NCBI GenBank assembly: GCA_963971285.1
Contig: OZ020251.1
Coordinates: 3,224,001 to 3,288,000 of the forward strand
Length of the DNA: 64,000 nt
Reading direction: 5' to 3'
DNA from: Astropecten irregularis
Taxonomy: Eukaryota; Echinodermata; Asteroidea; Paxillosida; Astropectinidae
A program made the translations under genes and the position numbers. Numbering within the stretch: position 1 is the stretch's first letter; the number at the start of each line of letters is the position of its first letter. Positions 10,666 through 57,596 of this stretch are shown here, in pieces. The notes under the pieces are model-generated. The model was given only the letters and a program-made list of their open reading frames with translations. It did no database searches and was not told the DNA's origin.

Positions 10666-11504
10666 AATGAGTTTGAACAAAGAAAGAATGAAAAATGTAA
10701 TGCTCACATATGAGCAACTGGAAAATGTAACTTGTTTAGCTCAAGCTCAATTTTAGAAATCCACGGCTCAATTTTAGAAACCCCGATACTTTTGCTTTTT
10801 GCACATGATGTCATATCCATGCTTGTCAAAGACATAATAAAAAACAGTTCACGTATAAAACAATTATTTTCTAGTTGAATGAGACACGAATGCGTGTGTC
10901 TCATAGTGAACTCACTGTACTTTACTAATGTCAAATTTAACTGAGATGACTTAAACCCCAAATGGTTGAATTAATCACTACTATTCAAATATCTTGGGAA
11001 AAATGTCCTTGTCATAAATCGTTATTGTGAACAAAGAGTTTAAACAATGAGACGCATAATCCGTCTCCAGCGTCAATTAAATACGGCGTAAAACATTTGC
11101 CAGTCATGATGTGCTAATATAATGAAATCAATAAAGTTGGTAATTGCTTTCAAACATTCCAACTGGCAAAAACAAAATTCATAATAAATTTCTTCCGACC
11201 TCTATCGGTCTTTCCGTTGTAATTGCTTGCTCGCATCCTATTACGTATTGTACTTAAATGTTCAATGTCTCAATTAAGAGACAATTAAGAGACTTCTACC
11301 GAAGTGAAGGCTAGGTATAAACGGTTATTACATCGGTTCAAGGTTTGTTGCCTTGTGAAATTAGACATCCCGTTCACCTTCAGTTGCTGCAATAAGAGAA
11401 CAAAGCACCAACATTCACGATCGAGCCACACGCGTATCTTACAAATTATCTAATATAAAGAAGTGGATTTCCATAAGATTTTAATTACTTCAGTTTGAGA
11501 TAAA
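10666..11504. other. non-coding; upstream region of the lectin exon
   Basis: No exon seen. It includes the presumed promoter and 5' leader of the exon that starts at 11505, but I recognise no clear core promoter element. Confidence 0.35.
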
Positions 11505-11844
11505 ATGGCGATACTACGGTCTAAGCTCACATCAGTCACATTTATCGCTGTAACAATTTCCTCTCTTGTGGCTATTTGCCATGCCAAATGTTCCCCGTGT
11601 CCATTCCAATGGAGACAACACCAGCACCACTGCTACCGATATTTTCACCAGTCACTCCAATACGATCAAGCTAAGGCGTTCTGTCGTCGCTTCGCCTCAG
11701 GGGGATCCACCGGGGAGTTGGCAGCGGTCGGCTCCACGGAAGAGTTGATTTTCTTGATGGACTACATCGGAGCTGTCCTTAATGGAACATCAAATGCCAG
11801 TATACCTGAATATGTCTGGCTGGACAAGACCGGGGAAACATATG
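11505..11844 (+). CDS. exon: signal peptide plus first half of a C-type lectin domain
   Basis: The ATG at 11505 opens a hydrophobic leader (VTFIAVTISSLVAICHA) followed by CSPCPFQWRQHQHHCYRYF, then QAKAFCRRF, GELAAV, EELIFLMDYI and VWLDKTGE. This matches the N-terminal half of the C-type lectin fold: paired cysteines, the WxxHCYxxF region, the helix with a cysteine, and the LAxVxxxEE helix. The exon ends in phase 1 at a strong GTAAGT donor. The second half (WND...C, WIG...C) was not found in the 4 kb downstream. The next phase-1 acceptor is the Ig exon at 15904. It is either an alternative first exon of that receptor or a separate truncated lectin gene. Confidence 0.75.
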
Positions 11845-14062
11845 GTAAGTAAAGGAACTCCGTATACTTGAGTTTTCAGGAATGACGCACACACCGTAAA
11901 GTGGACTTGATTTAAATCACGGTATGTTTCACTTCAGTGCTTCACATCTTTCCTCAAAACTAAGAGCGCTCAGATGTACCCAAACCTACAAAGAACACAA
12001 GCAAAGTCGGTGTTACTTGGACTTACGATCTCTTGTTCATAATATAATGAAGAAGGATATGTCACTTAATGGGAAAATTTGGATTACCGGTCTTCAAGTG
12101 CGAGCAAGTAAAAATTATTGTCTTTTTACATTCCAAGCATGCTATTTTTTCATTTTTTTCTCGGTGCTTTAGATATTTTGACAGTATTAAATGACATTCA
12201 ACTTCGAAATACTGGGGATATATCCCTGGGATCGACACCCATGACAGAAGTATTGAATACAAGACGCACGAATGTAATAGAGATTAACACATTAGTCACA
12301 TGTGTCACTAGTTGGGAGCAAAGTTATTAAAATTGAGAACAAAATCTAAAGTGGAAAGATAATAAGTTACAGATGTAAGGTTCTGCAGAAAAGGACTTAT
12401 GTAAATCGGCAATGTAGGTCGGACCTTTGTTTTTAAATGCTTTATGGACGAGCATAGGGCTAGCGTAAGCACTGAAGGCTCTAAATGTTGAGGTGGAAAC
12501 CATGGTCACATTATCCGTTCAATTATAAAGTATAAGAATGCTCTAAATAAATTAAGGTAAAGTAACAAATATATTAAATCAATATTCACATGCTTTGTGG
12601 TGTTCTGTAAAAGGAAATACAACATACTTACACTTTTATAAAGAATTTATTGTAGTACTGTGACCATTTCTTGATTGTTATTGTCGAATGTGGGAATAAA
12701 TAAATTCGTGTTTGTTTTGTTATCATAAATAGATGGATCATTCGAAAATCTTATTGTCTCCTCATATAGAAAATATAGGGATGAATAAATTCCCTTTGAG
12801 CGTGTTTAACATTAGTTACATCCAAAAAAAAAAGGAAATCCATTATGCCTTACGCTAATTATGGCAATAGGCCCGTGGTGTCATGTCCATCATGTTTACA
12901 CATCTGAATACAGACAAGTTACCATTTAGGACAAATTTGATTTTTGTATAGCTTACTCCAAAGTTATGTGTTTTAAGTATAGTGGACTTAGTCTATACTG
13001 TTGTGTAATATTTTCAAAGCATGAAGTTATAATGGAACCCAAATGGTTTATTAATATGTAGTGATATAAATCGACCGAGTAGATTGATGAATTTATTTTG
13101 AAAAAGAAACTGCCCTCGCCATAATGTTTATAGTACATTAAGACTCTAAAAAAAAATGATAATATAAACCGCGTTGGTGCGCATTATTTTATGATGTTAA
13201 TAATATAATGTAATAATATAAGACATTTACATTGCACAGCTATTATAATTATGAATATACTCTACTGCGCATACAAATTAATTTTTATAAATAGTTTGTT
13301 TTAGACCGTTTCAGATGTTCTCATTATGATGAGGTTGATCGTGGTTGTAATTACTTGATAAGAAATTCTCAAATAAAAATGGAAGGGAGAAAGCATCGAT
13401 GTTTCATAAATCACTTGTAAATACATTATTTCGAAAATGCCAATTAATTGCTCATTCCTGGTTAGAGTTAATTAGGATGGGGTTTGCCTTAATCTTCTAA
13501 AGAAATGAGTTAAAGGGTTTGACCATGGTTCCTTTTTTGTTATATTAACTCCAGTTAATTGTTATTTAATTGTTCCGTTTACCTTGATGGCCATCAGGGG
13601 AGTCCGTAGACCATGACAGGAAAGGTCAAAGTCTAAAAATAGAATGTGTTTACATGTAATTCACATATTCTGGAATTTCCCGCCAAAAAAACAATTTGTC
13701 ATTTGATGCACTTGAATTGACCAGGAATACGGTATGTATTGAGAGTCTTACTAATCTTTAGAAAAGGAATCACACTAGATAGGGCCTATTATGTAAGCCT
13801 ACTGACTTCTACACTAGCTAGTCCTACATGTAATAAGTCACTGAGAATGACGTACATTATGCATATTGACGTTTACGTGCGCGAACTGATTCCGTAATGC
13901 TGTACAGTTTGCCATACACTACTTGTCGTGTTGTTGTCGGTTTAGTGTGGCCTTTTCGTACAGTGACTTCCGGGTTGATCTATACAACACAATCGTCGTC
14001 CATTGAAGCATTGACACTCGTGTAAAACTGCTAGGATTTAAACACGAGAATGTCAGGCGGTG

Positions 14063-14685: not shown

Positions 14686-14830
14686 ATGGAAAGAGTACTC
14701 CAGGGGTTGCTGAATGTTGTCATAATATGCACATTGTGCCGTGCGTGTATTTCATCTGATGATATTAAGCAGAAGTTACACGGAGAGGCAGTATCCAGCA
14801 ATATGTCCCATCGTCGAATGAAAAGACAAG
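14686..14830 (+). CDS. exon 1: signal peptide
   Basis: MERVLQGLLNVVIICTLCRA is a typical leader. It is followed by a basic RRMKRQ stretch that resembles a furin-type site. An in-frame ATG lies 60 bases upstream (14626), but the downstream ATG places the hydrophobic core correctly. The exon ends in phase 1 at GTATATGG and joins the 15904 exon in frame, creating a Glu codon across the junction. Confidence 0.65.
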
Positions 14831-17800
14831 GTATATGGAAAAAAAAACAAGGATATAATTTATGTGTTAGTTTCATAAAGGGAACATATAGGATTTGCGT
14901 TTTGAATGAATTAGGTACTTAAAGTGAAGGTCTTAAACTTCCTTACAGACGTTGTTTAATGTAGGCTACCTTTATACGCTTTGTTCATGTGGATAGCAGA
15001 AATACGGCAGAAATAATCTTGCCAACCCCCCCCCCCCCCCCCCTCCGAATCCTTCAGGGTTACACCACGCTTTCAAAATGCTAAAAAGATCGTTGATTTC
15101 CTTGAAAAACCCAGCATCCGATGAACCAAGAATTACCATGGTGACTGTTTGCACTGTTCACAAACTGTTGAGTCAATTTTCTGTCTTAAACTCAATATTT
15201 TCTTGTTGGAGGCCTTGCAATAATGAAAGGGACAGGGGCCTATGTTTATCCTGATGTAACCAGGCCCTTGTCAACTGAATACACTTCTCTGACTTGCTGT
15301 GGAAACCTGACATGTTAATGTCATTTACGGGGTAAGTGCAATGCGCATTAAGCATGCAATTTGAAGGACACTAATTGCAAGGTCAAAGGGCAAAATCTGG
15401 CTTGCAATCTTTTGGGCGCGACACCTCTAGCTCTTGGAGTAAAGTGAAGCTGGCAAGTACTTAAGTTTCTAAGAACCGTGTTACAAGATATTACTTACAC
15501 TCCCAAAATCTTTCCAGGAACTCATTGGCCTATGTCTTCACGTTGTCCTTTATCAGAATGTGTAGTTAGTCCTCATTTTGCTGGAGAAATTACTTATTCC
15601 TTGTGTTCTTATTAGAGCAATTAAAGACAAAGTCCATCAAACTTTATGTCTATTCATAAACAGGGTTTTCATTCAGCAATTGCTAACTTTGCTAAGTCTA
15701 CCACAAAAAAAATTACATGCATAACAATGTCTAAATGTGAGGTTTTGCCATGATTCCATTCGATCCATTAACAAGTTATCGTGTCATTTGAAAAAAGGGT
15801 AATCACAAGCCAGCAGTAGGCCTACATGATCGTAAATGCTTTACAATTATAGGAAGTGGAATATTTTCAAATCATTTCCCGAGTATTCCTTGCAATATTG
15901 CAGAGGCAGCTGCACAAGAGCCAATGTACGTCAGCGAAAGAGAGGTGTACCTCCAAAACAACCATACATACCACCTCCCCTGCACGGCGTTGACACCCGG
16001 TGAAGAGGTCAAGATCGTTTATTGGCTGCTTGGGAAGAGTCTCGATCCATCCCGACGAGAACTCCTTCTCGAACTATCAGACGGCGGTACCACACAGACG
16101 TCGAGCTCCCGTTACCAACTGACATCTTCATACGGCATCAAAATACATGATGCTCGGCCCAGTGACACCAACAGGTACTGGTGCAAGACGTTGCGAGAGT
16201 CAACGGGGAAATTTGTTGAAGACTACTTCGATGTGATTGTTCTAGGTAGGCATTCAGTATAGGTGATTGTAGAACAACATTGCCACGTGAAACAAACAGA
16301 AGAAAGAAACAAAGTCTGCACGGTTTATTCCTTTTAAATATCCTGATAATTTAGACATTCTGTTCAGTTCAGTTGAACCAGAGTAAATGCAATTATCAAG
16401 GAGGTCAAGATTATGGTTCACACTTAGCTAATCAGGCCTAACCTTTGCTTGCAGACGTTACTTTTCCGGATGACAGCGACCCCAACGCCACTAATAACGT
16501 CTCTGTCACACAAAAATTCATGGAAAACAATAACATCGAGTGTCCAGTATTGGCTAAAGCACCGGCCCGGACCGACGTCACGATTTACTGGACACTCTTG
16601 GATGATGACGGCCCAAGGCTGGACATCATACTGGCCATTTTCTCCAATGGAGAGGTTTTGCATTATCCCAATTCAACTGTGCAGTACAACCTGGTAGGTA
16701 GCAATGGTCTGGAGATTGGACAATTTAGACAGAGAGAGGAACAATACTGCTGCCATGTATTTGAGCAAGACTCCTACATGAGGACTGGCTGTGTATACGT
16801 GACTTGGCTAGGTAGGTATCAGTCTATTTGTGTGATTATTCAGACCTATAGAGTTGCATTAACCTTGGTTGACGAGAATTAAAAGCTTCCTAATATGATG
16901 TGTGCCCTGTGTATAAGTTACATAGTGTGAAGGTATATTGTCAACCAATTCCTGAATTGCAAAGACAACTTGCAATCGAGCTCCATAATTAATCTAGTGA
17001 CACTAATTTCTCCACAAAGCCCCATAGACACAAGCAATATTCTCAACCGTTTTTTGTTAACAGCCAAACTTTCAAAACAATATCCCTCAATCTCTGGCTG
17101 TGACATCAGAGAGGAAAACCAATGTGCGCTCACTCTAGCTCCAAACCAAGATTGTCTTCAGCTGGGCTGCATGGTAGAAAGGACCTACCCAAAGCCCGCC
17201 CTCAACTGGTCCATCAGTCACTGTGACTGCAGTACCATGCCCAAAATCTTCACGTCTGTACTAGCTGAGGCAACACGTGATGCTACTTCCCTGACCTATG
17301 ACGTCACAGCCACGGCGTACATCTTCGACCTAGTGATGCAACGTGAGAATTGTACATGTACACTGATATGCACTGCAAAGGGTGATGCAGTTCCTGGTGG
17401 CATTGGTATTTCTCAAGCTGTCATAACAGGTAAATATTTTCAGCATTTACACCAAGTCCCATCAACAAATAAAATTAAAATTTTCTTCTATGGGAACATT
17501 CTATTGTCACTCAATGTACATTTTCATTTATCTATAATGGTCTCTTCCAGGTAACCAAGTCGAATCTACGCCGCTGACTTCCCAAGTCACACCTATAGGC
17601 CCCATGGTCACACCAAACTACTCGGAGTCCTGCAGGTCAACACTTATCATATTCATGACCATGCTCATGATGCTCCTGTTTGTCATCTTACTCATCTGGG
17701 TCATTTTGATTTTCCCGCGAAATCGCCGATGCGTTCAGAAACACGTGGACGACTTGGCAACATTTCCCTGTTTGAAAGGAGAAATGAGTGAACAACAAAA

Positions 17801-20800
17801 GGTCGACCGAATCCAATTAAGAGGTGAGCCCAGGACCAAATTGAATGAACGTTTGTATCAAATACAATGTAATTTCATGTTTGATAATGACTGTTTCAAA
17901 AGATACTGATATGCTGCATTTATAAATATTTAGAGCCTACAGATTATATCATGTCGCCCCTTCCCCCTTGTTTGCATCTAGTGACCGCGGATAACTTTGC
18001 GAACGACAAGGTCGAAGAGAGATCCCATGAACAGAATGAAGAAAGCGGTATGTCGAATTTCCGGTGCCAAGTCTAAATAGAGATTCTGTTTATCAAACTC
18101 GGTATCTGTTGCCTTGCCTCGAAGAGTCCGCTACTATAGAGCAAATTACAAGCACTAGGACATTGCAGCACCAGGGGCCAATTTCATAAAACTTTTAAGC
18201 ACAAAAATTTGCTTAGCACAAGAATGTCTCGCCCAATAAAACAAACCACCATTGAAAATTCCGTTTGATATTCATGGTCAGCGAACAACAGCCAAAGAAC
18301 AATCACAAGTGATACACAACATGTGGAAATTTGGTTGTTTTTATTATGACAGAAATGTCATGCTTAGCCAATTTTTGTGCTCAACAGTTTTATGAAATTG
18401 GCCCTAGTTCACTCTGCTTTTTGCTACAGCACACTCGTTGTCTCGAGTTTTAAGTCGCCCAAAGGTCCTATTTTCCACGTGATGTTGGAATACCTATACT
18501 TCGAGCTTACTTGAGCAATGTTTTATCCAAATAGCATTATGGCTCAGCACTCAAGTGATTTTCCAATTATTTGGTGGTGGAGATCTGAGAACTTCTATCC
18601 GTGCTACCCATAGAACGAAGAATGAAACAACCATCTCGAGCGTTGTATCCAATAACTACGATGTTAAAATTGAGTGTTGTACTAACTATCATTCAATAAT
18701 GCTGGGGCTTGGAGGGGGTTTATCTGAGAGAATTTCGATCCGATATAGCATGTATTTGTTTTTCAGCTTTTCATTGCCATTTAGCCTCTAAGAAAGATCC
18801 TGCCAGGATCCAAACGTCAGGCCAATGCCTACTCTGAGCATGTTGTATATTTCACGACGTTATTATGGTTGATGAGCAGTTTGCAGCAGTTTATGAGTTA
18901 TGATTTAGTCAATTGAAATATATAGTAATTGAAGACTTCAAAATTACTGTGTATTGAGCATGTTTCAAATTTAAGATCCTTGTACGGTAGGTATGTGAAC
19001 ACGAACCAGAAGAGGCTGGTGTAGTAAAGCTATATGTTCTTCCCTGCTATACAGGTAATGTGCAGGAGACAACACCGATGATGACTGGAGAAAATGATGA
19101 AACACAAGCATCGGAAAGTACGGACAAATGTGATTCTAATTCTATGGGGCTTCCTTTTATCCATTATATTTGTTTTTGTGGCCAGGGGTTGATTTTAACT
19201 GCATGGGACACACGAAGGTAGACACCCCTTAGAAACCGTGTATAAATCACATGAGAGGAGGCCCACAATTTATTAATAAACAGACTTGTTTGGTTTTATA
19301 TAGGCCTATAACAATGTAACATGATATGCATTTTCCTCAACTATTGATTGAACATTGTTAAATGCTAATTTACGGTATATTACTCAATTTTTGGTTTAAA
19401 GGTACACTACATGATTGGTAAAGGTCACAGAACAGCTCCCACACTTTGTCTAATTCAACATGTACATGAAATAATAAACCTGAAAATCTGAGCTCACCAA
19501 CATATCTGAGTCACGAGAAAAAAAGAAGAAGCGAAAACCGACTCACGATTTTTTTCTTATAAAATATAAAGAACGGTTTTGACCTTACCCCAGGGATGAA
19601 AACTGTTTTCGGTCTTTGTTTGACTTATTTCATGATAAATACATAATTTCAGGCGAAAATATTGTAACCGTATGTTTCTACCAGCACCATCTTTAAACCC
19701 TGAAAGTTATACTTAAATATGTTAATATTTCTGTTTGTGTATGTTGCCGATCTTGTACAATAGCTTTAAAAGAAGTCTTATTGAGTATAATATCATGAAT
19801 CTAAACTGTCCTTATTATATTTCGAATACATTTATTATCTGTGGCTGTTTTCATCGATCGAATTAAGGCTTAGTTATACAAATTGATATTCATCATTTAT
19901 CGAACTCTTTTTTTTTTTATAGATCGCCCTTGCCTGATCATTAGAAAGCGACCCGATCTACTTGTTACAGGTAATATTTTTAAAACCCTGTGCATCGATT
20001 TGATTATGACATTAATTTTGACAAAATATTTTTATCTTGTCCGTGCTTGGATTCATAATTGTTGGAACGGGAAATATTGTACCAGTCATATAAATTACTT
20101 AAGTTTTCGCACTTGCGTTAGAAACATTAATAAATTGCTTATTATTTCAGACAATAAAAACACATGGAGGTATGTGGGGGAGCTTGTCACCAAAACAAGC
20201 TTGGATGATGAAGATGCGACTGGATATAAGGCTATCAAGAAGGTGATCTGCAGTCGGGATGGCGATATGGTTGTCATTGATGCAACAGGATTGCATTACT
20301 TTACGTCTACCTATCACTACCACTTCACTGATATTAATCCGCTGCTTGGCGGTGAAGTTGATTGCAGCGTCTCCTACTTCCAACCCAACAAACTCCTCGT
20401 CGGGTTCCGCAGAGGTAAAATAGTGACTTTGGATCTTCAGAGTGGTGCCTTTACAAATTTTAGCTCGGTCACTCCAGTGGGGCATACACCAGTGCATCTT
20501 GCAGATGTAGATGTCGACAGCTGTGTGTTTGCTGCTGATGATAATGGACAGGCTGTGTCCATGTTTGATAACGAGGGTACGTGCTCAACACGCATGGAAA
20601 TCAGCATCAGACCACGATGGGTACACACGTTGGCACAAGATCACACACAGAGCCTTTTCATTACCTCGGACACCGTCGTTAAGAAGTATAACATTCTCAG
20701 AAGTGGTACGAACGGCAAGATTGAAGCTCAGGTTCGCTATACCATTGACAAAGTGTCCTTGCAAATGAATAATTTTCAGCCTGGTTTCCTCACTGTACAA

Positions 20801-21004
20801 GAGGGGACACTGTTTGTTGTTAATCATCTTGAAACAAGTAAGCACTTACAGATTTTGGAATTGGATGCCACGAAAGGTGTCAAGACACACAGCATCATCG
20901 TTGACCATCCTGAACTTCGTGGTGTTGGGTTTTTAGAGAGGAATAAAATGGTCGCCTTCACAGATGTCGCTGTGTATCTTTTCGAAAGATCGAGTTCTTC
21001 CTAA
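14686..21004 (+). CDS. Ig-domain transmembrane receptor with C-terminal beta-propeller-like domain
   Basis: Nine exons: 14686-14830, 15904-16245, 16455-16811, 17064-17429, 17551-17823, 17982-18047, 19055-19117, 19923-19970 and 20151-21004. Every intron is GT-AG and phase 1, giving about 837 residues. Order: signal peptide, three Ig-like domains (one per exon), a short stalk, one membrane span near residues 434-458 followed by PRNRR, about 95 residues of polar tail with no tyrosine before the propeller, then about 284 residues of repeated beta-strand pattern like NHL or WD-type propellers. This implies a type I receptor with the propeller inside the cell. The ligand and function are unknown. 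The exon chain is inferred; the weakest junction is the 19117 donor (AAA|GTACGG). The combination is unusual, and a fusion of two neighbouring genes cannot be excluded without transcripts. The gene runs tail-to-tail with the kinase gene at 23.8-34.75 kb. Confidence 0.7.
15904..16245 (+). CDS. exon 2: first Ig-like (V-type) domain
   Basis: Shows the Ig core: YHLPC, IVYWLLG, and SDTNRYWC near the end (the DxxxYxC pattern). 114 codons, phase 1 at both ends, acceptor ATATTGCAG. Symmetrical phase-1 exons are the normal unit of Ig-domain shuffling. Confidence 0.85.
16455..16811 (+). CDS. exon 3: second Ig-like domain
   Basis: Has NNIECPVLAKAP, IYWTLLDDDG and REEQYCCHVFEQDS, giving the two core cysteines and tryptophan of an Ig fold plus extra cysteines. 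119 codons, phase 1-1, with GCTTGCAG acceptor and GTAGGT donor. Several NxT/S glycosylation sequons are present. Confidence 0.8.
17064..17429 (+). CDS. exon 4: third Ig-like domain
   Basis: Cysteine-rich Ig-like exon with CLQLGCMVERTYPKPALNW, HCDC and CTCTLICTAKGDAVPGG. The KPxxxW pattern and the LxCxAxG end are C2/I-type Ig features. 122 codons, phase 1-1. Confidence 0.75.
17551..17823 (+). CDS. exon 5: stalk, membrane span and start of tail
   Basis: A Thr/Pro-rich stalk precedes a hydrophobic run, STLIIFMTMLMMLLFVILLI, continuing to WVILIF. This is followed by PRNRRCVQKH, a positive-inside stop-transfer signal. 91 codons, phase 1-1. It fixes the topology: Ig domains outside, the rest inside. 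Confidence 0.85.
17982..18047 (+). CDS. exon 6: short acidic cytoplasmic exon
   Basis: 22 codons, VTADNFANDKVEERSHEQNE and onward, phase 1-1, with GCATCTAG acceptor and GTATGT donor. No known motif. Confidence 0.55.
18174..18404. repeat. MITE with GGGGCCAATTTCATAAAAC ends (family R2)
   Basis: The left end GGGGCCAATTTCATAAAAC is the inverse of the right end GTTTTATGAAATTGGCCC. It lies in the intron after exon 6. Two more copies lie at 21912-22155 and 40888-41131. Confidence 0.85.
19055..19117 (+). CDS. exon 7: short cytoplasmic exon
   Basis: 21 codons (NVQETTPMMTGENDETQASE), phase 1-1. The acceptor GCTATACAG is good; the donor GAAA|GTACGG is weak. Reading on would reach a stop, so splicing here is the only way to reach the later exons. 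Confidence 0.45.
19398..19771 (-). repeat. R1 MITE copy
   Basis: Starts TTAAAGGTACACTACATGAT and carries the R1 body in reverse (CTACCAGCACCATCTT near 19678). It lies in the intron before exon 8. Confidence 0.75.
19923..19970 (+). CDS. exon 8: short linker exon
   Basis: 16 codons, RPCLIIRKRPDLLVT, phase 1-1, with a poly-T-TATAG acceptor and GTAATA donor. The hydrophobic/basic pattern suggests the edge of the next folded domain. Confidence 0.45.
20151..21004 (+). CDS. exon 9: beta-propeller-like C-terminal domain
   Basis: 284 codons to a TAA at 21002-21004. Repeated beta-rich modules are visible: KKVICSRDGDMVVIDATG, NKLLVGFRRGKIVTLDLQSG, SCVFAADDNGQAVSMFDNEG, QSLFITSDTVVKKYNI and GTLFVVNHL. 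The spacing of about 40-45 residues suits six to seven blades, as in NHL/WD/YncE-type propellers. The nearest known setting is the C-terminus of TRIM-NHL-like proteins, but no RING or B-box is present here. The exact family is not assigned. Confidence 0.7.
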
Positions 21005-21194
21005 AAACACTCTTTTTCCCCCTTGAACCAAAAATTAATATTAGTTGCATTAGGCCTATGCCAATTAATTACTGATACAGAGGCAGCTGAATAATCGACA
21101 TATCTCAACATTTTCATCATATTTATTAACTTTCATCTATTCGGAATGCATATTGATCCTGCATGTTTGAGTTTTAATGGGCTAAATACACAGT

Positions 21195-21200
21195 AATAAA
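21195..21200 (+). promoter_or_regulatory. candidate polyadenylation signal
   Basis: AATAAA about 190 bases after the stop of the Ig/propeller receptor. This is the first clear plus-strand hexamer downstream. Confidence 0.45.
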
Positions 21201-21911
21201 TTATTGATCTTCAGTAGTTTTTAATTTTTTGTTCGCATAAGAATTTGCGCTTCCTTATATTGTTAGAAAAGGCGCTATGTACATGTAATTATTATTATTA
21301 TTAATATTATTAAGAATGCATATAAAACATTATTTACGCATGCAGATAAAGGTTTCAATAGCATATGGGGCCTAGAAGTCATTATAAAATACTCTTCTCG
21401 ATTTGAGAATCGTACATTTTATTTCAGATTTCCTCTTGCCATTTTCGCTTTCCATACGTTTAAGGCGCGCGATGAATATTGATTGACCTCTGACCCTTGT
21501 GATGTGATTAACAATGTGTCTTTTCAACTATACACCGACATGTAAATGGATACGTATTTGCATAATATCGATATATAAATCAATTGTATTGCGTGTTTGC
21601 ATGACATATGACCTCGTCTTTGCATTGACACGGCAAGCATAATATAACATAACAAAACACCGAATCTGTTTACTCGTTTCCACAATAATAATGCGCACGG
21701 CCCACACAATGACGTGGTCGGTGTGTGGTAGGCATACTGTGTGGGCAATGCATGATTGAGCATTATATGTGAAGGTTTGAAGTTCAAGTTGAAGTCAATG
21801 CAATACACATGTATAGGATAGAGTGTGTGTACATGTAATTGATTCCAGTTTGCACGCACTGTAATGTAATGAACGCTACAATTCAACAGGCCTACCGTCG
21901 CATTACAAACA

Positions 21912-22155
21912 GGGGCCAATTTCATACAACTGTTAAACACAAACATTTGCTTAGTACAACAATGTCTCGCCCAATAAAACAAACCACCATTGAAAATTCC
22001 ATTTGATATTCATGGTCAGCGAACAACAGCAAAAGAACAATCACAAGTGATACACAACACATGGAAATTTGGTGGTTGTTAACCCTGTTTTTATTAAGAC
22101 AGAAATGTCATACTAATTAAATTTTTGTGCCTAACAGTTTTATGAAATTGGCCCC
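21912..22155. repeat. R2 MITE copy
   Basis: Ends GGGGCCAATTTCATACAAC and GTTTTATGAAATTGGCCCC. The same insertion appears in unit B at 40888-41131, so it predates the duplication. Confidence 0.85.
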
Positions 22156-22326
22156 AGATTGTTATCGCAAAACGTCACTTTACATTTACAGCAAACAAAT
22201 GTTACTTCATGACAAGTTCGTCGTCCTATTAATCGATTTACACAGCTTGAGTTTTAACTTGATATAATGGAATATTTAACAAAGTTTGAGGGTGAAATAA
22301 TGTACATCCGTGCATAAATACAAATA

Positions 22327-22555
22327 ACTTAAAGTATTATCATACTTTGGTAAGATAACAAATTAAAAGATCAAAAATAAAAGGGAAAATACTTAAGAAA
22401 TACCGTTGCTGTTTTCACTGTTTTCTCAAAAAGCGAGCACCGTATGGGACTGAAATTTTCACAGATGACTGTTACTGTATCTGTCTTTTTGCCCGTGAAT
22501 ATGTATTTCTTCGATAAAAACCAAAGTATGATATTACTGTTAACTGTTATAACCG
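22327..22555 (+). repeat. R1-related MITE (family R1b)
   Basis: ATCATACTTTGGTAAGA at the left and CCAAAGTATGATATTACTG at the right are inverted arms, with AAGAAATACCGTTGCTG inside. Relatives lie at 29548-29915, 41306-41520 and 57891-58261. Confidence 0.65.
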
Positions 22556-23369
22556 TATTATACTTCTCCTGTTAAGAATTAAGGGCTAATTTGCTTTTGT
22601 AGTTATCATTATACAGCCGCCATAGTAGGCTCTATACCATGAAGAGTTAGCCACCTACAACCAAAATTAAGTTTTAAACGTCTATATATATATATATACA
22701 TTTGCATTATTCTCATTATCACTCATCATATACTTTGGGGATGGAATATTGCCATTTGAGCCTAAACGTAGGCCTGTAAGTGTATCAAAATGAAGCAGTT
22801 GTATCCTTAAATATCAACAAGTGCCTTTTACTCAACGTAATCAACTTAAAATCATACACTGTGTGTATATTTTTGATAAGATTATTATTTATGAGCAAAT
22901 TTGTGAAATGATTCATTATGTCTGGTGATGTTTTTGGAGAATTTTCAAAACTTGTTTTCCTTTCTACAAACATTTTAAACATACAGTCGATATTACCATT
23001 TTAATGTCTTCAATGCAAGTGTCTTATTATAATTATTGCTTTTATGCATTTTTCTATATCTGTTGTGTATTGATAATGCATATAATAGCATCTAATACAA
23101 TTCATCACGGAAAAAAAGCAATTTAGTTTAGATTTATGTAGATAGTCATAGGCATAGTCATAGTCATTACTTTTAATCATAATTATTTGTAAAATCAATG
23201 TTTAAACTTTATGTGTTTTGCAAATCGATTATGCGATACATTTTATAAGATATAAACTAATTTTATGATTTAATCATCCAATTATTAATATGGCTCTGTG
23301 GTCGATTTCACTAAATTCATCGGGATTGCAGCCCTATGTATAGAATATGCATATGGTGGGTTATCCTCC

Positions 23370-23421
23370 GTATATATCTATCCGTATATATCTATCCGTA
23401 TATATCTATCCGTTTATATCC
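23370..23421. repeat. 14-bp tandem repeat
   Basis: CGTATATATCTATC is repeated about three times here. Unit B (42308-42340) has fewer units, so the array length changed after duplication. Confidence 0.7.
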
Positions 23422-23645
23422 GTAAATTTCTCGACATGTTAGGTTCAGTTTGATTCGGGATTTCCCCAATAAACCAATTAGTTTGTAAACGCCAAATTCG
23501 CGAAATGAAGCAAGGGCATAAGCTGGCTCTGAAACTTGGAACTGGGGCCATTGACGAGGCCGGGGCGAAGTGACTAAGCTCAAGCTCGCGAAATGTGAGC
23601 AAGGCTGGGGCTGGGGCTTACTCTAACTGTAAGGAGGTGTGGCTT

Positions 23646-23651
23646 TTTATT
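23646..23651 (-). promoter_or_regulatory. candidate polyadenylation signal, kinase copy A
   Basis: AATAAA on the minus strand (TTTATT on the plus strand), about 160 bases past the proposed stop at 23811. It is conserved at 42903-42908 in copy B, which supports this as the gene's 3' end. Confidence 0.45.
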
Positions 23652-23810
23652 TCCGTGCTATCATGCGGTGCATATTTCAGTGGTGTGATTTATATAATTA
23701 AAAGGATCTTCATGAGTAAGAAAAGAACTAAGTCGGGTGATGGATACATGGTATGATGCCCTCTCCCACTTTCAAAAGTTCGGAGGCCACCGCCGCCTAG
23801 CTGTTGAAGT

Positions 23811-34750
<10,940 letters not shown>

Positions 34751-35083
34751 GTTGGATAAAAGAGAAATGCAATTAGTCATAACTGATATACCGAGGTTCT
34801 GTAGAATTTCACTTTCATATCATGAATTAGCGGTATGGGCCTACATGTACGCAGTAAAGATTGTACGCGCAAACGGAACAGAACAACATACATGCAGAGG
34901 CATGGGCCTTATAATGAGATATGTAAGCAGGGATATCCCTGGCAATGTATAATGTTGGAGACATTTTTCATCTTTTATCCAATGTATAGTACTCGGAATG
35001 ACGTTTACAGGGACCTGAACTTCCAATTGTTATACCCTTATTGCACCTATGATACTTTTTTATAATATACAGGGTGTCCCCGA

Positions 35084-35529
35084 AAAAACGCAACACTTGT
35101 GTCGAGAAATATTATATGAAATTAAACTGTTTATCATTTCAGGATTCAGATATGTGATAAAGCTATGGCTTGGCTATCATCACCATGTAAAATTTGAGCA
35201 AAATTTGACTAAAATTGAGTGAAAGAGCAAAGACTGAATTACTCAAACTCAAAAATCTAATTTTCATCTTTCTTTCATAACATTATGTGTGTATTGACCA
35301 CTATGCGTGTTATCCTTGCAATTTTTTTTTTTAAGAGTAATCTTTCAATTGGGCATAGTTTCGCCAATTTCTGCCAGATTTTGCTAAAATTCCACATGGT
35401 AATAGCCAAGACATGGTGGTATCACCATGGTATCACATATCTGAATCTTGAAGTGATAAACAGTTTAATTTTAACATTATGGGTCCCGACAAAGTGTTGA
35501 GGTGTTTTTTTCTGGGACACCCTGTATAG
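35084..35529. mobile_element. MITE-like element with CAGGGTGTCCC ends
   Basis: Starts ACAGGGTGTCCCCGAAAAAA and ends TGGGACACCCTGT. The subterminal arms TTAAACTGTTTATCA / TGATAAACAGTTTAA are also inverted. The same insertion is at 55288-55732 in unit B. Confidence 0.8.
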
Positions 35530-35865
35530 GCTATTTAACATATAATAACAGTAAACTCTCTGTATGCTAGAGTCGAAACTCATGTGAGGGACAAAGTAGC
35601 TTTGTCACAGCGGGAATAATCTTTACGGTCAAAGTTTCTAAGCACTTCTCGATATTAATCAAATGTTGAAATCATATGACAACCGAAACGAGGACACTCT
35701 CATAATTTAGTAGGCCTACATAATTTATTTCACTAATTCAAGCACGGACATGCAGTACAATATATACATCATGCCTACAGCAGCCGAAATTGCAAGGATA
35801 TATATAAAAGCATTATATGTAGCGGAATGGCAGGCGTAGAGATAAATAGATACAGTACATCATAT

Positions 35866-36792
35866 GGAGCCGATCTCATAAAACTTACGACGCGTCACAG
35901 AGTTAAGACGCATCCTTACTTTATGGATTCCATAGATGTGGGCGCCCCTTTTTATAACTTTGGTTCTCATTTCTTGTTCACCTTAAGGGAGGGTCGGTCG
36001 GTAAAAAAAGAAAGAAAAGTTTGGTGGAAAAAAAGAACTGGCTGAATACACAAAAACCTAAAGAAAATGATGTTCATTGTGTTCACTGTAATGAATATTT
36101 TTGAATATTTTTTGTATTATTTCAGTGATAAAAAGTATAACAGATTGAGGTTTATTGGCAAAAAAAAAAGAATTCCCAGAATTTTTGGAGACAAATTTTG
36201 TCTCCAGAATTTCTGGGAATCCTTTTTTTTATATTTTTCTTTTTATATTATACCATTCTGACTGGGTCGGCGGCAAACAAAGTTTTTTTTTCTTCGGTCA
36301 GAGCCTAAAATATGGGTCGGTCAGAAATGAGAACCACAGAATTAAAAAGGGGCGCCCTTTCGGAAGAATAAAACACTAGATGGGAAACGCGTGCGCGCCT
36401 GCCATTGCTTGTGCAGAAAACTTTCTTGCTGTTCATGGACGCGCTAAAAGGTCACGTGAATGAGGCGACGCGCAATGGTAAAATGGAATAAACAACATCA
36501 AATTAGCAGAGTAAAAGGGCTAATGTCTTTATATTAAATTGCTCAAGGTAAATTTCCATTCGGACTTGAAAAGCCACTGGAACTTTACACACATTTTAAT
36601 TTTGTTTAGCCTCATTCACGTGACTAATGGAAGCCCCCACACTGAATGCGCGTCTGATACGCGTTTCCCATCTAGTGTTTTATTCTTCTGATATCTATGA
36701 TGGATTCATCGCATCTATGCGACGCGTCACAGCTATGACGCGTCGCAAATCGAGTTGCGACGCGTCGCCGAGCATTATGAAATCGGCCCCGG
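35866..36792. mobile_element. nest of three inverted-repeat elements
   Basis: The outer element runs from GCCGATCTCATAAAACTTACG to ATTATGAAATCGGCCCC. Inside it is a palindromic element with arms AATAAAACACTAGATGGGAA and its inverse (about 36358-36692). Inserted at its left edge is a 418-bp element at 35940-36357 with GGGCGCCCCTTTTT ends. Unit B keeps the first two (56070-56500) and lacks the third. Confidence 0.75.
36160..36232. repeat. long hairpin inside the 418-bp element
   Basis: AGAATTCCCAGAA...TTGGAGACAAA pairs with TTTTGTCTCCAGAATTTCTG then GGAAT, bordered by A and T runs. The stem is about 35 bp with few mismatches. Confidence 0.8.
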
Positions 36793-37283
36793 CCTTCTCG
36801 TGTATCGTGACATGCTTGACTCCTATAGGCCTACGTTATGTTTGGTAGTATTAAACGCTCTTGACTATGTTTTAATAAAAACAAAAAGTGTTGGCAAAAG
36901 AAACAGGGATCTATGAGCACAAGTCTTATCGCCAATGTTACACGTTTGTTCAGCTTATGCTGCTGCAGATGCTGCTGCGGTTGTAGTTGTTTGGTAAGGT
37001 GTACAGTGTAGACATAAACTACTGTACAAGTGCACTTTCCAAAGCGTGCATATTAACGAGCTACCGTGATACATCTTGGGGACCACTTAACATAGCTGCT
37101 TGAGAACAAAATTTGCTTAAGCATGAATAGTCTTCATTGAACAAGCATGATCACGAACCAAAATTTCCATGTGATGCTTACAGCTTTTGACTTGTAGTCG
37201 GCCCTTGATAATTGCTGAGTATAACAATCACAATGAGTTTGGCAGTCAAACCTATATTATTCACTAACTGAATAATTCACTAT

Positions 37284-38459: not shown

Positions 38460-39135
38460 GTCTGTCTAATTACCCACCCTTCCCCTCCCCACATCCACTC
38501 AAGTTCCCTTTTCTTTCCTAACCTGGACCTACCACAGTTGATGATAGGTTTATTGTCCATCCACTGGCCCATCTGCCCATCCGCCCACCTTCCACCTTCT
38601 GACCTCGAATTAAACCAACCCCCACCCCACCCCCCTTCTTTAACCCCCTCCATCTTTCCTTTCTATCCCTGTCTTTTCTTTTCTTTCCCTTGTTTTCGTG
38701 TTTCAACCCTTTCTCTTTCCCTTTCTCCTATAACCTAACCCACCCAACCCACCCCACCCTTACTTCTACTTCTCCCTTCTCCCCTCCTTGTCCTTTCACC
38801 CTCTTTCCACACACCACCTTCTCCTTTTTCTTTTTTCCCCCACCCCCACCCTCCACCTACACCCCACATTTACCTTTAAACCTTTCCTTTTCACCCATTA
38901 CTCTCCTCCTCTTTCTCTCCCTTTTTCTTTTCCCTCCCCTCTTCCCTTTTCTTTCCCATCCACCTTTCTTCCTCCTCCCCCTTACATACCCCACCCTACC
39001 CGTAGTATTACCCCCCTTTACCTTCGTCCTATACCTGTCTTCTCCTCCCTCCCCCTTTCCTTCATTCCTCCCCTTGTCCCTTTCTGCTTTTTTCCACCCC
39101 ACCCCACCTTCACTCCCACCGCCTTTAACCATTTT
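38460..39135. repeat. ~680-bp polypyrimidine tract
   Basis: The plus strand is almost only C and T for about 680 bases (for example CCCTTTCTCCTATAACC, CCACCCTTACTTCTACTTC). The open frames within it are compositional artefacts. A purine-rich inverted relative with GGGGTGGGGTGGGG lies at 40620-40745. Confidence 0.85.
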
Positions 39136-39149
39136 CAAATAGAACTTAA

Positions 39150-39415
39150 ATTATGATGCCTCTTAAAGTTTTTTTCTTGAGCTTGTTATACACCACACGG
39201 ATAAAAGCTTCTGAAAAACTTTGGAGCGCATTCCGGTTCTTCTATTTTCTGTGTTACAAATTAATAAATTAAGATGTCTCCCTATATATTTATCAATCTA
39301 TTTGTTTGCCCTGTGGTTTATAGACGAATGGGACCTGTCTCTCCTTATTTGCTTTCCACATGCAACATGTATGATTTTGCGTCCCCTTTACACACATATC
39401 TAGTAAAAAATCTTA
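39150..39415. repeat. left arm of an inverted repeat
   Basis: Its reverse complement recurs, diverged, at 40290-40610. Shared words include GATAAAAGCTTCT, GATGTCTC, GGTTCTTCT and GCTTTCCACA. The pyrimidine tract is part of the same element. Confidence 0.75.
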
Positions 39416-39849
39416 CTTGCCGCCAAAATGTACTTCTCGTGCAACCTTCATGAAATGCTCCCTCTGGCGCCGCATCCTTCTGCCGATTTCTTATGACCTC
39501 CACTTTGACTTTCTTGAATCTGGGTCGTTCCTTCTCTTCTCCATTACTCTTTGGTGTAGTGACTTTGTACTTCTCTTCTGGCCAGCCATGGGCTGCCGAA
39601 AACCTTCAAGCAGTGGAGCATTATTGTCTGCTCTTGATTTATATCCCTGTCATTTTGCTTGTCTTTCAGCATTAGGCGGTGGGTCGTTTTCCGCTGGTCC
39701 AAAGACATCTTCTGCTAGATTATTTGGAAATGAAATGAGATGGATGCATCTTGACTTCAGTGCATTTCTGCGTCGTCTCACGTCTTCTGGTTCTTCTTCG
39801 TTGTTGTTATTTCGAAGAGAATGTCATCCAAACAGTAAAGTTACAAAAG
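39416..39849 (-). other. possible degenerate coding fragment
   Basis: Less AT-rich than its surroundings and open for 165 codons on the plus strand. On the minus strand, short frames rich in Arg/Lys/Glu (RFKKVKVEVIRNRQKD) look like a broken element protein. No family is recognised and no conclusion is drawn. Confidence 0.25.
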
Positions 39850-39903
39850 GTCGCCTTCACAGATGTCGCTGTGTATCTTTTCGAAATATCGAGTTCGTCC
39901 TAA
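39850..39903 (+). pseudogene. duplicated 3' tip of the propeller exon
   Basis: Repeats the final ~55 coding bases of the Ig/propeller receptor (GTCGCCTTCACAGATGTCGC, GTGTATCTTTTCGAAA) including the stop, with three changes. It marks the left edge of unit B. The rest of the gene was not duplicated, so this is a non-functional remnant. Confidence 0.9.
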
Positions 39904-40289
39904 GATCGTGGTGAATTCTTCAGATACTACACTCTTTGTTTTTCCTTAAACCAAAAATGTATATTAGTTGCATTATGCCAAATTACTCATACAGAGGCAA
40001 CTGAATAATCGACATATCTCAACGCTTTCATCATATTTATTAACCATTACTTTCATCTATTCGGAATGCATATTGACCCTGCATGTATGAATTTTAATGG
40101 GCTAAATACACAGTAATAAATTATTGATCTTCAGTAGCTTCTTAATGTTTTTGTTCGCATAAACAATAAGAATTTGCGCTCCGTATATTGTTAGAAAAGG
40201 CGCTATATACATTTTATTATTATCATTATTATTATTAAGAATGCATTTAAAAATGTATTTACGCATGCAGATAGTACGGAGCTACGGAA

Positions 40290-40760
40290 GATTATAAGGG
40301 CCACCTGCAAAAAAATTTTTTCGCGTTGCTATCTCGCCATCTGCATGCATCCGGTATTGCGATTGACACAGCAAATTCGTACATGTATATAGCCGGCCTG
40401 TGGAAAGCAAAATCAGAGAGAGAAGACTCAATCGTCTGACCATAAAACAAACAATTTGATAAATAAAGAAAGAGAGACATCTCAGTTTTTGCTATTTTTG
40501 TAGCACAGAAAATAAGAAGAACCGGGATGCGCTCCACAGGTTTTAAGAAGCTTTTATCAGTGTAGTGTATAGCGAGGTCAAAAAACTTGAAGAGGCATAG
40601 TGTATAGTTCTAACTGAAAGTGGTTTATCAGGTGGTTGGGGTAGGGGTGGGGTGGGGTGGGGGTTTGTTGAGGAGGAAAGGGGCAGATGGATATAGAAAG
40701 AGGGAAAGAAAAAAGGGAGACAGGGATGGGGAAAGAAAAATAGAGGTATTGGTTAGTTTG
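40290..40760. repeat. right arm of the inverted repeat, with purine-rich part
   Basis: Inverse of 39150-39415 plus a GGGGTGGGGT/GAAAGAAAAA purine stretch at 40620-40745 that matches the inverse of the pyrimidine tract. Sequence equivalent to 21360-21780 of unit A is missing here. Confidence 0.75.
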
Positions 40761-40887
40761 AGGTCAAGTCAATCCATTAAACATGTATAGCATAGAGTGT
40801 GTGTACATGTAATAGATTCCAGCTTGCACGCACTGTAATGTAATGAAAACTACAATTCAGCTGGCCTACCGTCGTCGCAATACAAAC

Positions 40888-41131
40888 GGGCCAATTTCAT
40901 ACAACTGTTAAGCACAAAAAATTGCTTAGCACAAAAATGTCTCTCCCAATAAAACAAACCACCATTGAAAACTCCATTTGATATTCATGGTCAGCGAACA
41001 ACAGCCAAAGAACAATCACAAGTGATACACAACACATGGAAATTTGGTGGTTGTTAACCCTGTTTTTATTAAGACAGAAATGTCATGCTAAACAACATTT
41101 TTGTGCTTAACAGTTTTATGAAATTGGCCCC
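40888..41131. repeat. R2 MITE copy
   Basis: Unit B counterpart of 21912-22155, ends GGGCCAATTTCATACAAC and GTTTTATGAAATTGGCCCC. Confidence 0.85.
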
Positions 41132-42469
41132 AGATTGTTATCGCAAAACGTCACTTTACATTTACAGCACACAAATGTTACTTCATGACAAGTTCGTCGT
41201 CTTATTAATCGATTTACATAGCTTGAGTTTTAACTTGATATAATGGAATATTTAACAAAGTTTGAGTGTCAAATAATGTACATCCGTGCATAAATACAAA
41301 TAACTTAAGGTAGTATCATACTTTGGTAAGATCAAACATTTAAAGATCAAAAATAAAAGAGAAAAGACTTAAGAAATACCGTTGCTGTTTTTCACTGTTT
41401 TCTCAAAAAGCAAGCACAGCATGGGACTGAATTTTTCACAGATGACTGTTATTGTATCTGCCTTGATATTTTTGCCCATGAATCTGTATTTTTTTTTTAT
41501 AAACCAAAGTATGATATCACGAATTTGCTTTTGTAGTTATCATTATACAGCCGCCATAGTACGCTCTTCATGAAGAGTTAGCCACCTACAACCATAATTA
41601 AATTTTTAGCGTCTATTTACATTTGCACTGGTTTCATTATCACTAATCATATACTTTGGACATGGAGTATTCTAAATTATTCTAACTTGCCATTTGAGCC
41701 TAAACATAGGCCTGTAAGTGTATCAAAATGAAGCAGTTGTACTCTTAAATATTAACAAGTGCCTTTTACTCAACGTAATCAACTTAAAATCATACACTGT
41801 AACTATGTATATTTTTGATAAGATTATTATTTATGGGCAAATTTGTGAAATAATTCATTATGTCTGGTGATGTTTTTGGAGAAATTTTAAAACTTGGTTT
41901 CCTTTTTACAAACATTTTAAATATACAGTCGATATAACCATTTTAATGTCTTCAATGGAAGTGTCTTATTATAAGTATTGCTTTTATGCATTTTTCTATA
42001 TATGTTGTGTATTGCTAATGCATATAATAGCATCTAATACAATTCAATACGGAAAAAAGGCAATTTAGTTTAGATTTGTATAAATTGTCCCAATTATTTG
42101 TAATCATAATTATTTGTAAAATTAATGTTTAAACTTCGTGTGTTTTGCAAATCGGTTATGCGATACACTTTATAAGATATTAACTAATTTTCTGATTGAA
42201 TCATCTTATTATTAATATGGCTCTGTGGTAGATTTCACTAAATTCATCGGAATGCATTGCAGCCCTACATGTATGTACAGAATATGCATATGGTGGGTTA
42301 TCCTCCGTATATATCTATCCGTATATATCTTCGTCAATTTCTCGAAATGTTAGGCTCAGTTTGATTCGGGATTTTCCCAATAAAACAATTAGTTGGAAAA
42401 CGCCAAATTCGCGAAATGAAGCAAGGGCATAAGCCGACTCTGAAACTTGGAACTGGGACCACTGACGAG

Positions 42470-42814
42470 CAGGCGCGGTTCTGCGGGGGGGGGGGGGGGG
42501 GGGGACTAAGGGGGCTGTTGCCCCAAAAAAGTTTGTCTAGCACCACCACCCCCCCCCCCACCCCCACCCCCCCCCCCCCGAAAAAAAATGCAAGTGAAAA
42601 TAAAATTCTAGAAAATACTGGATTTGTTCAGTTAATAAGCACCAATTATATAAAAAAACGCGTTGTGTGGCCTATAATGTGCATGTTTTTCGACCCCTAA
42701 TAAGACATAGCAGAAGCGAGTGTTAGAAGAACCCAAAATATTGGGTCTTCTAGCCCCCCCCAAAAAAATGCCTCTTCTAGCCCCCCAAAATTTTGGCTCT
42801 AGAACCGCGCCTGG
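42470..42814. mobile_element. hAT-like MITE with target duplication, copy B only
   Basis: Ends CAGGCGCGGTTCT and AGAACCGCGCCTG are perfect inverses. It is flanked by TGACGAG at 42463-42469 and 42815-42821 (8 bp with one mismatch). Unit A has the unfilled site TTGACGAGGCCGGGG at about 23551. The interior holds G and C homopolymer runs. Confidence 0.9.
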
Positions 42815-42902
42815 TGACGAGGCCGGGGCGAAGTGAGTAAGCTCAAGCTTAGTGAGCAAGGCTGGGGCTGGGGCTAACTATAACGGTAAGGAGGTGTGGT
42901 TT

Positions 42903-42908
42903 TTTATT
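42903..42908 (-). promoter_or_regulatory. candidate polyadenylation signal, kinase copy B
   Basis: Minus-strand AATAAA about 150 bases past the proposed stop at 43059, conserved with copy A. Confidence 0.45.
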
Positions 42909-43058
42909 TCCGTGTTATCATGCGGTGCATATTTTAGTGGTGTGATTTATATAATTACTGTATAAGGATCGTCATGAGTAAGAAAAGAACAAAGTCGGGT
43001 GATGGATACATTGTATGATGCCCTCTCCCACTACCAAAAGTTCGGAGGCCACCGCCGC

Positions 43059-54973
<11,915 letters not shown>

Positions 54974-56967
54974 GTTGGATAAAAGAGAAATGCAATTAGT
55001 CATAACTGATATACCGAGGATTCTGTAGAATTTCACTTTCATATCATGAATTAGAGGTATGGGCCTACATGTACGCAGTAAATATTGTAAGCGCAAACGG
55101 AACAGAACAACATACATGTAGATGCAGGGGCCTTATAATAAGATATGTAAGCAGGGATATCCCTGACAATGTATAATGGTGGAGACATTTTTCATCTTCT
55201 ATCCAATGTATAATACTCGGAATGACGTTTACAGGGACCTGAATTTTCAATACACCCTTATGGAATCTATGATACATTTTTATAATATACAGGGTGTCCC
55301 CCCAAAAAACGCAACACTTGTGTCGAGAAATATTATATGAAATTAAACTGTTTATCATTTCAGGATTCAGATTTGTGATACAACCTTGTCTTGGCTGTCG
55401 CAATGTAGAATTTGAGCAAAATTGGACTACAATTAAGTGAAAGAGCAAAGACTGAATTACCCAACCTCAAAATCCAATTTTCACCTTTCTTTCATAACAT
55501 TATGTGTGTATTGACCACTATGCGTGTTATCCTTGCAAATTTCTTTTTAAAGAGTACTCTTTCAATTGGTCATATTTTTGCCAATTTCAGCCCGATCGTG
55601 CTTAAATTCTACATGGTAATAGCCAAGACATGGTTGTATAACATATCTGAATCTTGAAGTGATTAATCGTTTAATTTTAACATTATGGGTCCCGACACAG
55701 TGTTGCGGGTTTTTTTCAGGGACACCCTGTATAGGCTATTTAACATATAATAACAGTAAACTCTCTGTATGCTAGAGTCGAAACTCATGCGAGGGTCAAA
55801 GTAGCTTTGTCACAGCGGGAATATCTTTGTCAAGGTTTTTGAGCACTTCTCGTTATTAATCAAATGTTGAAATCATATGACAACCGAAACGAGGAAACTC
55901 ACATAATTTAGTAGGCCTACATAATTTATTTCACTAATTCAAGCACGAACATGCAGTACAATATATACATCATGCCTACAGAAGCCAAAATTGCAAGGAT
56001 ATATATAAAAGCATTATATGTAGCGGAATGGCAGACGTAGAGATAAATAGATTATACAGTGCATCATAATGGAGCCGATTTCATAAAACTTACGACGCGT
56101 CACAGAGTTAAGACGCATCCTTACTCTATGGATTCCACAGATATCGGAAGAATAAAACACTAGATGGGAAACGTATGCGTTCCTGCCATTGCTTGTCCAG
56201 AAAACTTGTTTGCTGTTCATGGACGCGCTAAAAGGTCACGTGAATGAGGCGACGCCTCCATATTAAGTTGCTCAAGGTAAATTCCCATTCGGACTTGAAA
56301 AGCCACTGGAACTTTACACACATTTTAATTTTGTTTGCCTCATTCACGTGACTAATGGCAGCCCCACACTGAATGCGCGTCTGATACGCAATTCCCATCT
56401 AGTGTTTTATTCTCCTGAAATCTATGATGGATTCATAGCATCTATGACGCGTCGCAAATCGAGTTGCGACGCGTCGCTGACCTTTATGAAATCGGCCCCT
56501 GTTGTACCTTGACATGCTTGACTCCTATAAGTTCAGTTTGGTAGTATTAAACGCTCTTGACTATGTTTTAATAAAAACAAAATGTGTTGGCAAAAGAAAC
56601 AAGGATCTATGAGCACAAGTCTTATCGCCAATGTTACACGTTTGTTCAGCTTATGCTGCTGCAGATGCTGCTGCGGTTGTAGTTGTTTGGTAAGGTGTAC
56701 AGTGTAGACATAAACTACTGTACAAGTGCACTTTCCAAAGCGTGCATATTTACGAGCTACCGTGATACATCTTGGGGACCACTTAATATAGCTGCTTGAG
56801 AACACAATTTGCTTAAGCATGAACAGTCTTCATTGAACAAGCATGATCACGAACCAAAATGTCCATGTGATGCTTACAGCTGTTGACTTGTAGTCGGCCC
56901 TTGATAATTGCTGAGTATAACAATTACAATGAGTTTGGCAGGCATACTTATATTATTCACCAACTGA
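54974..56967. other. upstream region of kinase copy B
   Basis: No exon seen. Contains the CAGGGTGTCCC element at 55288-55732 and the two nested elements at about 56070-56500 without the third insertion found in copy A. Confidence 0.5.
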
Positions 56968-57596
56968 AGGGTTTTTGGTGCTCAAGTCAATTGTGGTGCA
57001 TAAGCAGATATGAAATTCGCAGAGGTAATAAGCAGAAAAAGCCGTCAGAAAATTGAAACACCATCGGTTGGGTCTTTTGAAAGTTAAAATTAAGAATCAT
57101 GCATATTTTACAATAACAAAACGTGTAAACCAATGTACACAAAATATTACTTTTCTTTCAAAAATATACAACATCAAAACATTTCATGCCATATTTGGGC
57201 GACAAAAGACGTTTAGGGTCATGAAGAGACCGAGTTATATTTACAGGTAAACTATTTCAAGTGGTCTCTCTTGTTAAACGGAGAGCAAGAAACTATTATA
57301 TATTATGCAGCATTCAAATAAACTAGTTTTGAAAAATTATGTTTGACAGATTCATAAAGAAGCTGTATATATTCAACATCTCTTTTCAAATTATACATAT
57401 TACAAGTCTTAAACTTCCCGAGGAAAATGGTATACGGGTAATTATAAAGGCATGCGAAAGGCATACCATATAAAGGAGTATATAATGACTTATATAATAT
57501 GTACTTAGTTAATATTATATAATCATCAAATAACCACAAGGGAAACTGACTGAATTTTAAGAGAAAAGTGAATTTAAAGAGAAACGTGAACAAAGA

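Follow-up and report, generated by a model that had tools for sequence, protein, structure and literature searches.

A 64-kb window of the sea star Astropecten irregularis (G000:C15:3224001-3288000, from a 475.7-Mb assembly) contains, at positions 14686-21004 of the window, a predicted gene of nine exons. We consider it probable that this one gene encodes a type I receptor of the immunoglobulin (Ig) superfamily tethering a six-bladed NHL-type propeller in the cytoplasm, most likely for signalling from the outside in. A sequence-only reading of the stretch had proposed an Ig ectodomain, one membrane helix and a cytoplasmic propeller of NHL/TRIM type, and orthologs, two paralogs, fold prediction and profile comparisons all agree with this arrangement.

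We rebuilt the exon chain from the genomic sequence and obtained one frame of 837 residues, ending in a TAA stop at 21002-21004, in which all eight introns are GT-AG and, as had been read from the sequence, in phase 1. All exons lie on the plus strand of the window. Exon 1 (14686-14830) encodes the signal peptide (about residues 1-22, with a hydropathy stretch at residues 4-23) and a propeptide that ends in RMKR (residues 44-47, 14815-14826), a motif which we take to be a furin-type site. Exons 2 (15904-16245), 3 (16455-16811) and 4 (17064-17429) encode the Ig part, while exon 5 (17551-17823) carries a stalk, the membrane helix and the juxtamembrane segment FPRNRR...DDLATFPC. Apart from the signal peptide, the only strongly hydrophobic stretch covers residues about 434-458 (17640-17714) and is followed by RNRR, so that hydropathy bears out both the signal peptide and the single helix. 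The cytoplasmic linker continues through exon 6 (17982-18047), exon 7 (19055-19117), which holds a conserved PM motif, and a mini exon 8, RPCLIIRKRPDLLVT (19923-19970), which corresponds to CLVIR/CLVVR in the orthologs. Exon 9 (20151-21004) encodes the stop codon and the NHL-type propeller, for which counting strands in the model gives six blades. Type I topology would place the propeller on the cytoplasmic side.

A protein search with residues 540-837 (expect value (E) <= 0.01, 1755 candidates) returned two proteins, both covering the whole stretch: LOC119739402 of Patiria miniata (831 residues) and LOC110987703 isoform X2 of Acanthaster planci (829 residues). Both species belong to Asteroidea, order Valvatida. 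The two proteins align end to end with the window protein at 47% and 44% identity, respectively, and are full-length Ig-transmembrane (TM)-propeller proteins of the kind that the sequence-only reading suggested looking for in other echinoderms. Identity per exon (P. miniata/A. planci) is 54/53% in the propeller, 51/46% in Ig1, 54/47% in Ig2 and 38/40% in Ig3, and exon 8 aligns ungapped, with no gap at the 8/9 junction. At the position of RMKR, P. miniata has REKR and A. planci RGTRR. A search with profile A1 recovered P. miniata and missed A. planci, so that absence elsewhere proves little. Likewise, profile A2 found no protein at E <= 1 among 4725 candidates, in a search whose length window shuts out the known orthologs.

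Since full-length relatives in two sea stars and two paralogs in the same genome carry the parts in the same order, we conclude that exons 1-9 are predicted to form one gene and that the Ig-TM-propeller order is more than chance; a chance open frame is rejected on the same orthologs and paralogs. It could be argued that the Ig receptor ends with exon 7 and that a second gene, made of exons 8-9, encodes the propeller as a soluble protein, as exons 7-9 are scattered across 2 kb, exon 8 has just 48 bp, and a Met at residue 9 of the propeller part in both orthologs would allow an internal start there. However, the same parts are joined in the two orthologous proteins, without a gap at the 8/9 junction, and in the two paralogs, whose TM and propeller exons are joined by phase-1 introns. 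Moreover, the first Met of the propeller exon comes at residue 40 in the window gene and only at residue 252 in paralog 2. We therefore regard two genes, which the sequence-only reading had named as its refutation, as extremely improbable. Nor do the data favour its suggestion that the last exon was recently captured from a neighbouring gene: since the joint between TM and propeller is common to other sea stars and to diverged paralogs, we infer that it is older than both the species split and the paralog split.

The paralogs point to a small family, with at least three predicted propeller-bearing genes on one contig (C15) and one predicted protein each in two other sea stars. Searched genome-wide at E <= 0.001, the exon-9 protein matched itself and one other place, paralog 2 (C15:3342354-3346070, minus strand; 605 residues, with the start codon chosen by hand). 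Paralog 2 has a signal peptide, Ig1, Ig3, a TM segment, the mini exon and the propeller; all four of its junctions are in phase 1, its V-set domain scores 39.6 bits in Pfam, and Ig2 was not seen. A genome-wide search with its propeller at E <= 10 gave 11 matches. Besides the query, these were the window gene (4.8e-9), C15:9.131 Mb (0.028) and eight further places (0.11 to 7.4). The one at 9.131 Mb is paralog 3, in which two exons that match Ig1 and Ig2 of the window gene in tblastn (1.6e-9 and 1.2e-6, respectively) precede a TM exon joined directly to the propeller exon; the frame holds over all three junctions, and a 5' exon is not among the exons identified. Ig1 itself was found genome-wide, at E <= 0.1, in five places including the window gene, all on C15: the three propeller genes, C15:3295.7 kb and C15:13.73 Mb (0.025). 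A propeller thus accompanies three of the five. One further place seems to be without it: the gene at C15:3295.7 kb (C15:3292-3297 kb, minus strand), with a signal peptide, RSKR at the position of the RMKR motif (C15:3297 kb), Ig1, Ig2 and a TM exon, is a possible propeller-less partner. For the fifth, L039 (C15:13730805-13735531), 5 kb were read, ending about 270 bases past a TM-like exon that follows four Ig-like exons.

With a V-set domain above the Pfam cut-off in a secreted/TM context, the predicted product is a member of the Ig superfamily. That domain is exon 2 (29.7 vs 26 bits), whose profile matches CEACAM1 (6e-12), sidekick-1 (8.6e-11), Robo1 (6e-10) and VCBP3 (5.8e-8) among the best 60 of 2367 matches. 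Exons 3 and 4 both hold a Cys-Trp-Cys core and pass no Pfam cut-off. The exon 4 profile, run against the PDB, placed antibody constant domains at the top (E 0.017 and worse), which suggests a C-type domain; apart from Contactin-3 (0.6), the exon 3 profile matched just a single chain that is not Ig (0.81), and the equivalent exon of paralog 3 matched V-set at 6e-4, below the cut-off. As a single sequence, the Ig half matched nothing in the PDB at E <= 0.1. Because exon 2 alone passes a Pfam cut-off and the profiles of exons 3 and 4 are weak, the three Ig domains of the sequence-only reading come down to one that is firmly predicted and two that are likely. The likeness to CEACAM, sidekick, Robo, pIgR and amphioxus VCBP consists of Ig1 profile matches, and none of them is known to have a cytoplasmic propeller.

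The assignment of exon 9 as a six-bladed NHL-type propeller is supported by structure prediction. The best AlphaFold model is a propeller (mean predicted local distance difference test (pLDDT) 75.4, predicted template modelling score (pTM) 0.74), and its nearest structures are NHL domains, with other propellers not far below; RNA-bound Brat (5ex7, 4zlr) is among the top matches. The propeller profile matched TRIM propellers in the PDB with a whole-sequence E of 4.5e-4 and, in the same genome, exons of five TRIM-type genes (L030, L032, L034, L035 and L036; probability 96.0, E 4.4e-9). Fold and profile comparisons thus come nearest to TRIM-NHL, in line with the propeller-like last exon read from the sequence. 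Compared with itself, the profile revealed no repeat within the propeller, and a full-length model of P0001 built from two sequences reached a pLDDT of 29.8. In the 837-residue protein, P0001 or P0002, Pfam, by which alone a coiled coil was looked for, gave no match to RING, B-box or the TRIM coiled coil at E <= 1; it gave no other intracellular domain above its cut-off, and no SPRY match in the window gene or the relatives scanned. Based on the modelled fold and the profiles, we propose that the propeller most likely has a common ancestor with those at the C-terminus of TRIM proteins and lacks the RING, B-box and coiled coil that accompany them there. Among the TRIM-type genes on contigs C8 and C27 (L034-L037), we observed B-box and coiled-coil frames beside the propeller exon; L034, L035 and L037 are very alike and look like a lineage-specific expansion.

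Several observations weigh against the reading we prefer. Only one of the five AlphaFold models of exon 9 is confident, the other four having a mean pLDDT of 37-46. Among the matched stretches listed in the PDB profile search none is significant alone (best 1.4), and exon 9 as a single sequence matched designed ankyrin-repeat (DARPin) constructs first (0.0022) and TRIM2 at 0.85. None of four propellers reached the Pfam NHL cut-off, one matching at all (E 0.13), and other propeller families in Pfam match exon-9-type propellers about as weakly as NHL does. Near the C15:3295.7-kb gene, tblastn detected no propeller at E <= 1 in the 304 kb read. The juxtamembrane part of paralog 3 has two tyrosines, so that a lack of tyrosine, discussed below, is not family-wide. 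The gene model comes from genomic sequence alone, and both orthologs are database predictions. For comparison, Pfam NHL passed its cut-off in the one TRIM-type propeller tested, that of L037 (28.4 vs 20 bits). An alternative is a generic, WD40/SGL-like propeller acquired independently, without TRIM ancestry. However, the best matches by fold, by PDB profile and by profile in the same genome are all TRIM-NHL, and we consider such an origin unlikely.

On the simplest reading, the propeller would be the only folded intracellular module and hence the part through which the receptor touches the inside of the cell. Tyrosine is absent from the linker of the window gene, of paralog 2 and of both orthologs. 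Therefore, the receptor may signal through contacts between the propeller and other proteins rather than through motifs of the immunoreceptor tyrosine-based inhibition or activation (ITIM/ITAM) type. In the mechanism we propose, the ectodomain would bind either a ligand or an adjacent cell, and the resulting clustering would gather the propellers, so that a cytoplasmic partner could be recruited or released.

The reverse direction is also conceivable, with the propeller binding a cytoplasmic metabolite or a pathogen product and altering the ectodomain, on the model of BTN3A1, where phosphoantigens act in this way through the B30.2 domain. The plan of the receptor is topologically that of butyrophilins, for one of which, BTN3A1, inside-out signalling is described (PMC10533412), and the propeller is conserved at least as much as the Ig exons. 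On the other hand, the butyrophilin domain is B30.2 and not a propeller. Sea stars are not known to have gamma-delta T cells. We hold inside-out sensing to be rather unlikely for the window gene. A third possibility is a membrane-tethered RNA regulator, with mRNA bound by the propeller as in Brat or TRIM71. The RNA-bound Brat structures among the best fold matches would fit it; however, RNA-binding NHL domains have basic faces, while the three orthologous propellers are acidic (isoelectric point 5.6-5.9) and that of paralog 2 is near neutral (6.9). Because of these acidic propellers we rank RNA binding low and think it very unlikely. Outside-in recruitment would accordingly stand first, inside-out sensing second and RNA binding well behind.

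The closest known plan, and the familiar one for an Ig receptor with a TRIM-type end, is that of butyrophilins, which share with the predicted protein a type I Ig receptor, a single TM segment and a folded, C-terminal cytoplasmic domain of TRIM type. This is an analogy of plan only, with the fold predicted in our case: butyrophilins use B30.2/SPRY and occur in gnathostomes, whereas the window gene has an NHL-type propeller in a sea star. Ig plus SPRY is presented as a product of domain shuffling in gnathostomes (PMC11788884), and BTN3A1 as signalling inside-out (PMC10533412). In the window gene, a single Pfam match bears a butyrophilin name, a sub-threshold C2-set_3 in exon 4 (E 0.12). TRIM-NHL proteins (Brat, Mei-P26, Thin, TRIM2/3/71) resemble the window protein in propeller fold and profile affinity and differ from it in that the latter is predicted to be membrane-anchored with an Ig ectodomain, while Pfam detects in it neither RING nor B-box nor a coiled coil of TRIM type. 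Among the TRIM-type loci L030-L037, the five named above share the propeller profile match; where seen, B-box/coiled-coil frames stand in these loci instead of Ig exons, and the propeller is apparently split across exons.

The literature surveyed (titles and abstract openings, with most subscription journals outside its coverage) contained no description of the Ig-TM-propeller layout. The claim of a new receptor layout may thus stand for the propeller version, while the plan itself is that of butyrophilins. More tentatively, and with clear doubt, we suggest that sea stars, independently of vertebrates, evolved a butyrophilin-like class in which a TRIM-NHL propeller tethered under an Ig ectodomain detects ligands in the cytoplasm or brings in effectors; a C-terminal domain of TRIM type would then have been joined to an Ig receptor for a second time, by convergence. 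If true, an invertebrate family that is conserved, follows the butyrophilin plan and uses another TRIM-type domain would show that evolution reached this plan at least twice. Sea stars suffer mass disease, and the family would be a candidate class of recognition receptors for them. It would also offer a way to ask what a TRIM propeller does when freed from RING and B-box.

Elsewhere in the window, upstream of the receptor gene, a frame at 11499-11849 (plus strand) looks by eye like a secreted C-type-lectin-like protein; its only Pfam match, UL45 (a C-type-lectin-like family), is sub-threshold. Downstream lies a gene resembling an Ig receptor tyrosine kinase (24640-34750, minus strand), with a copy to about 54300. 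By eye, a signal-peptide frame lies near 34690-34750. Three Ig-like exons are at 33.5-33.9, 32.5-32.9 and 31.5-31.9 kb, of which the second and third pass Pfam C2-set_2, and there are a TM frame and, down to 24.9 kb, frames with kinase-type motifs including DFG. The Pfam kinase match of its last exon is sub-threshold, and its Ig exons recur at 51.8-54.3 kb. A tandem segmental duplication (20946-37272 / 39845-56968) has blocks over 1.7 kb that are 85-92% identical and some short ones that are lower. We rejected it as a second copy of the receptor: its left edge cuts through the end of exon 9, so that just the final codons of the gene are repeated, and a relic of 17 residues from the end of the propeller stands at 39850-39900. 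A strongly C/T-rich low-complexity stretch lies at about 38500-39150, and GC skew is -0.22 across 36-40 kb.
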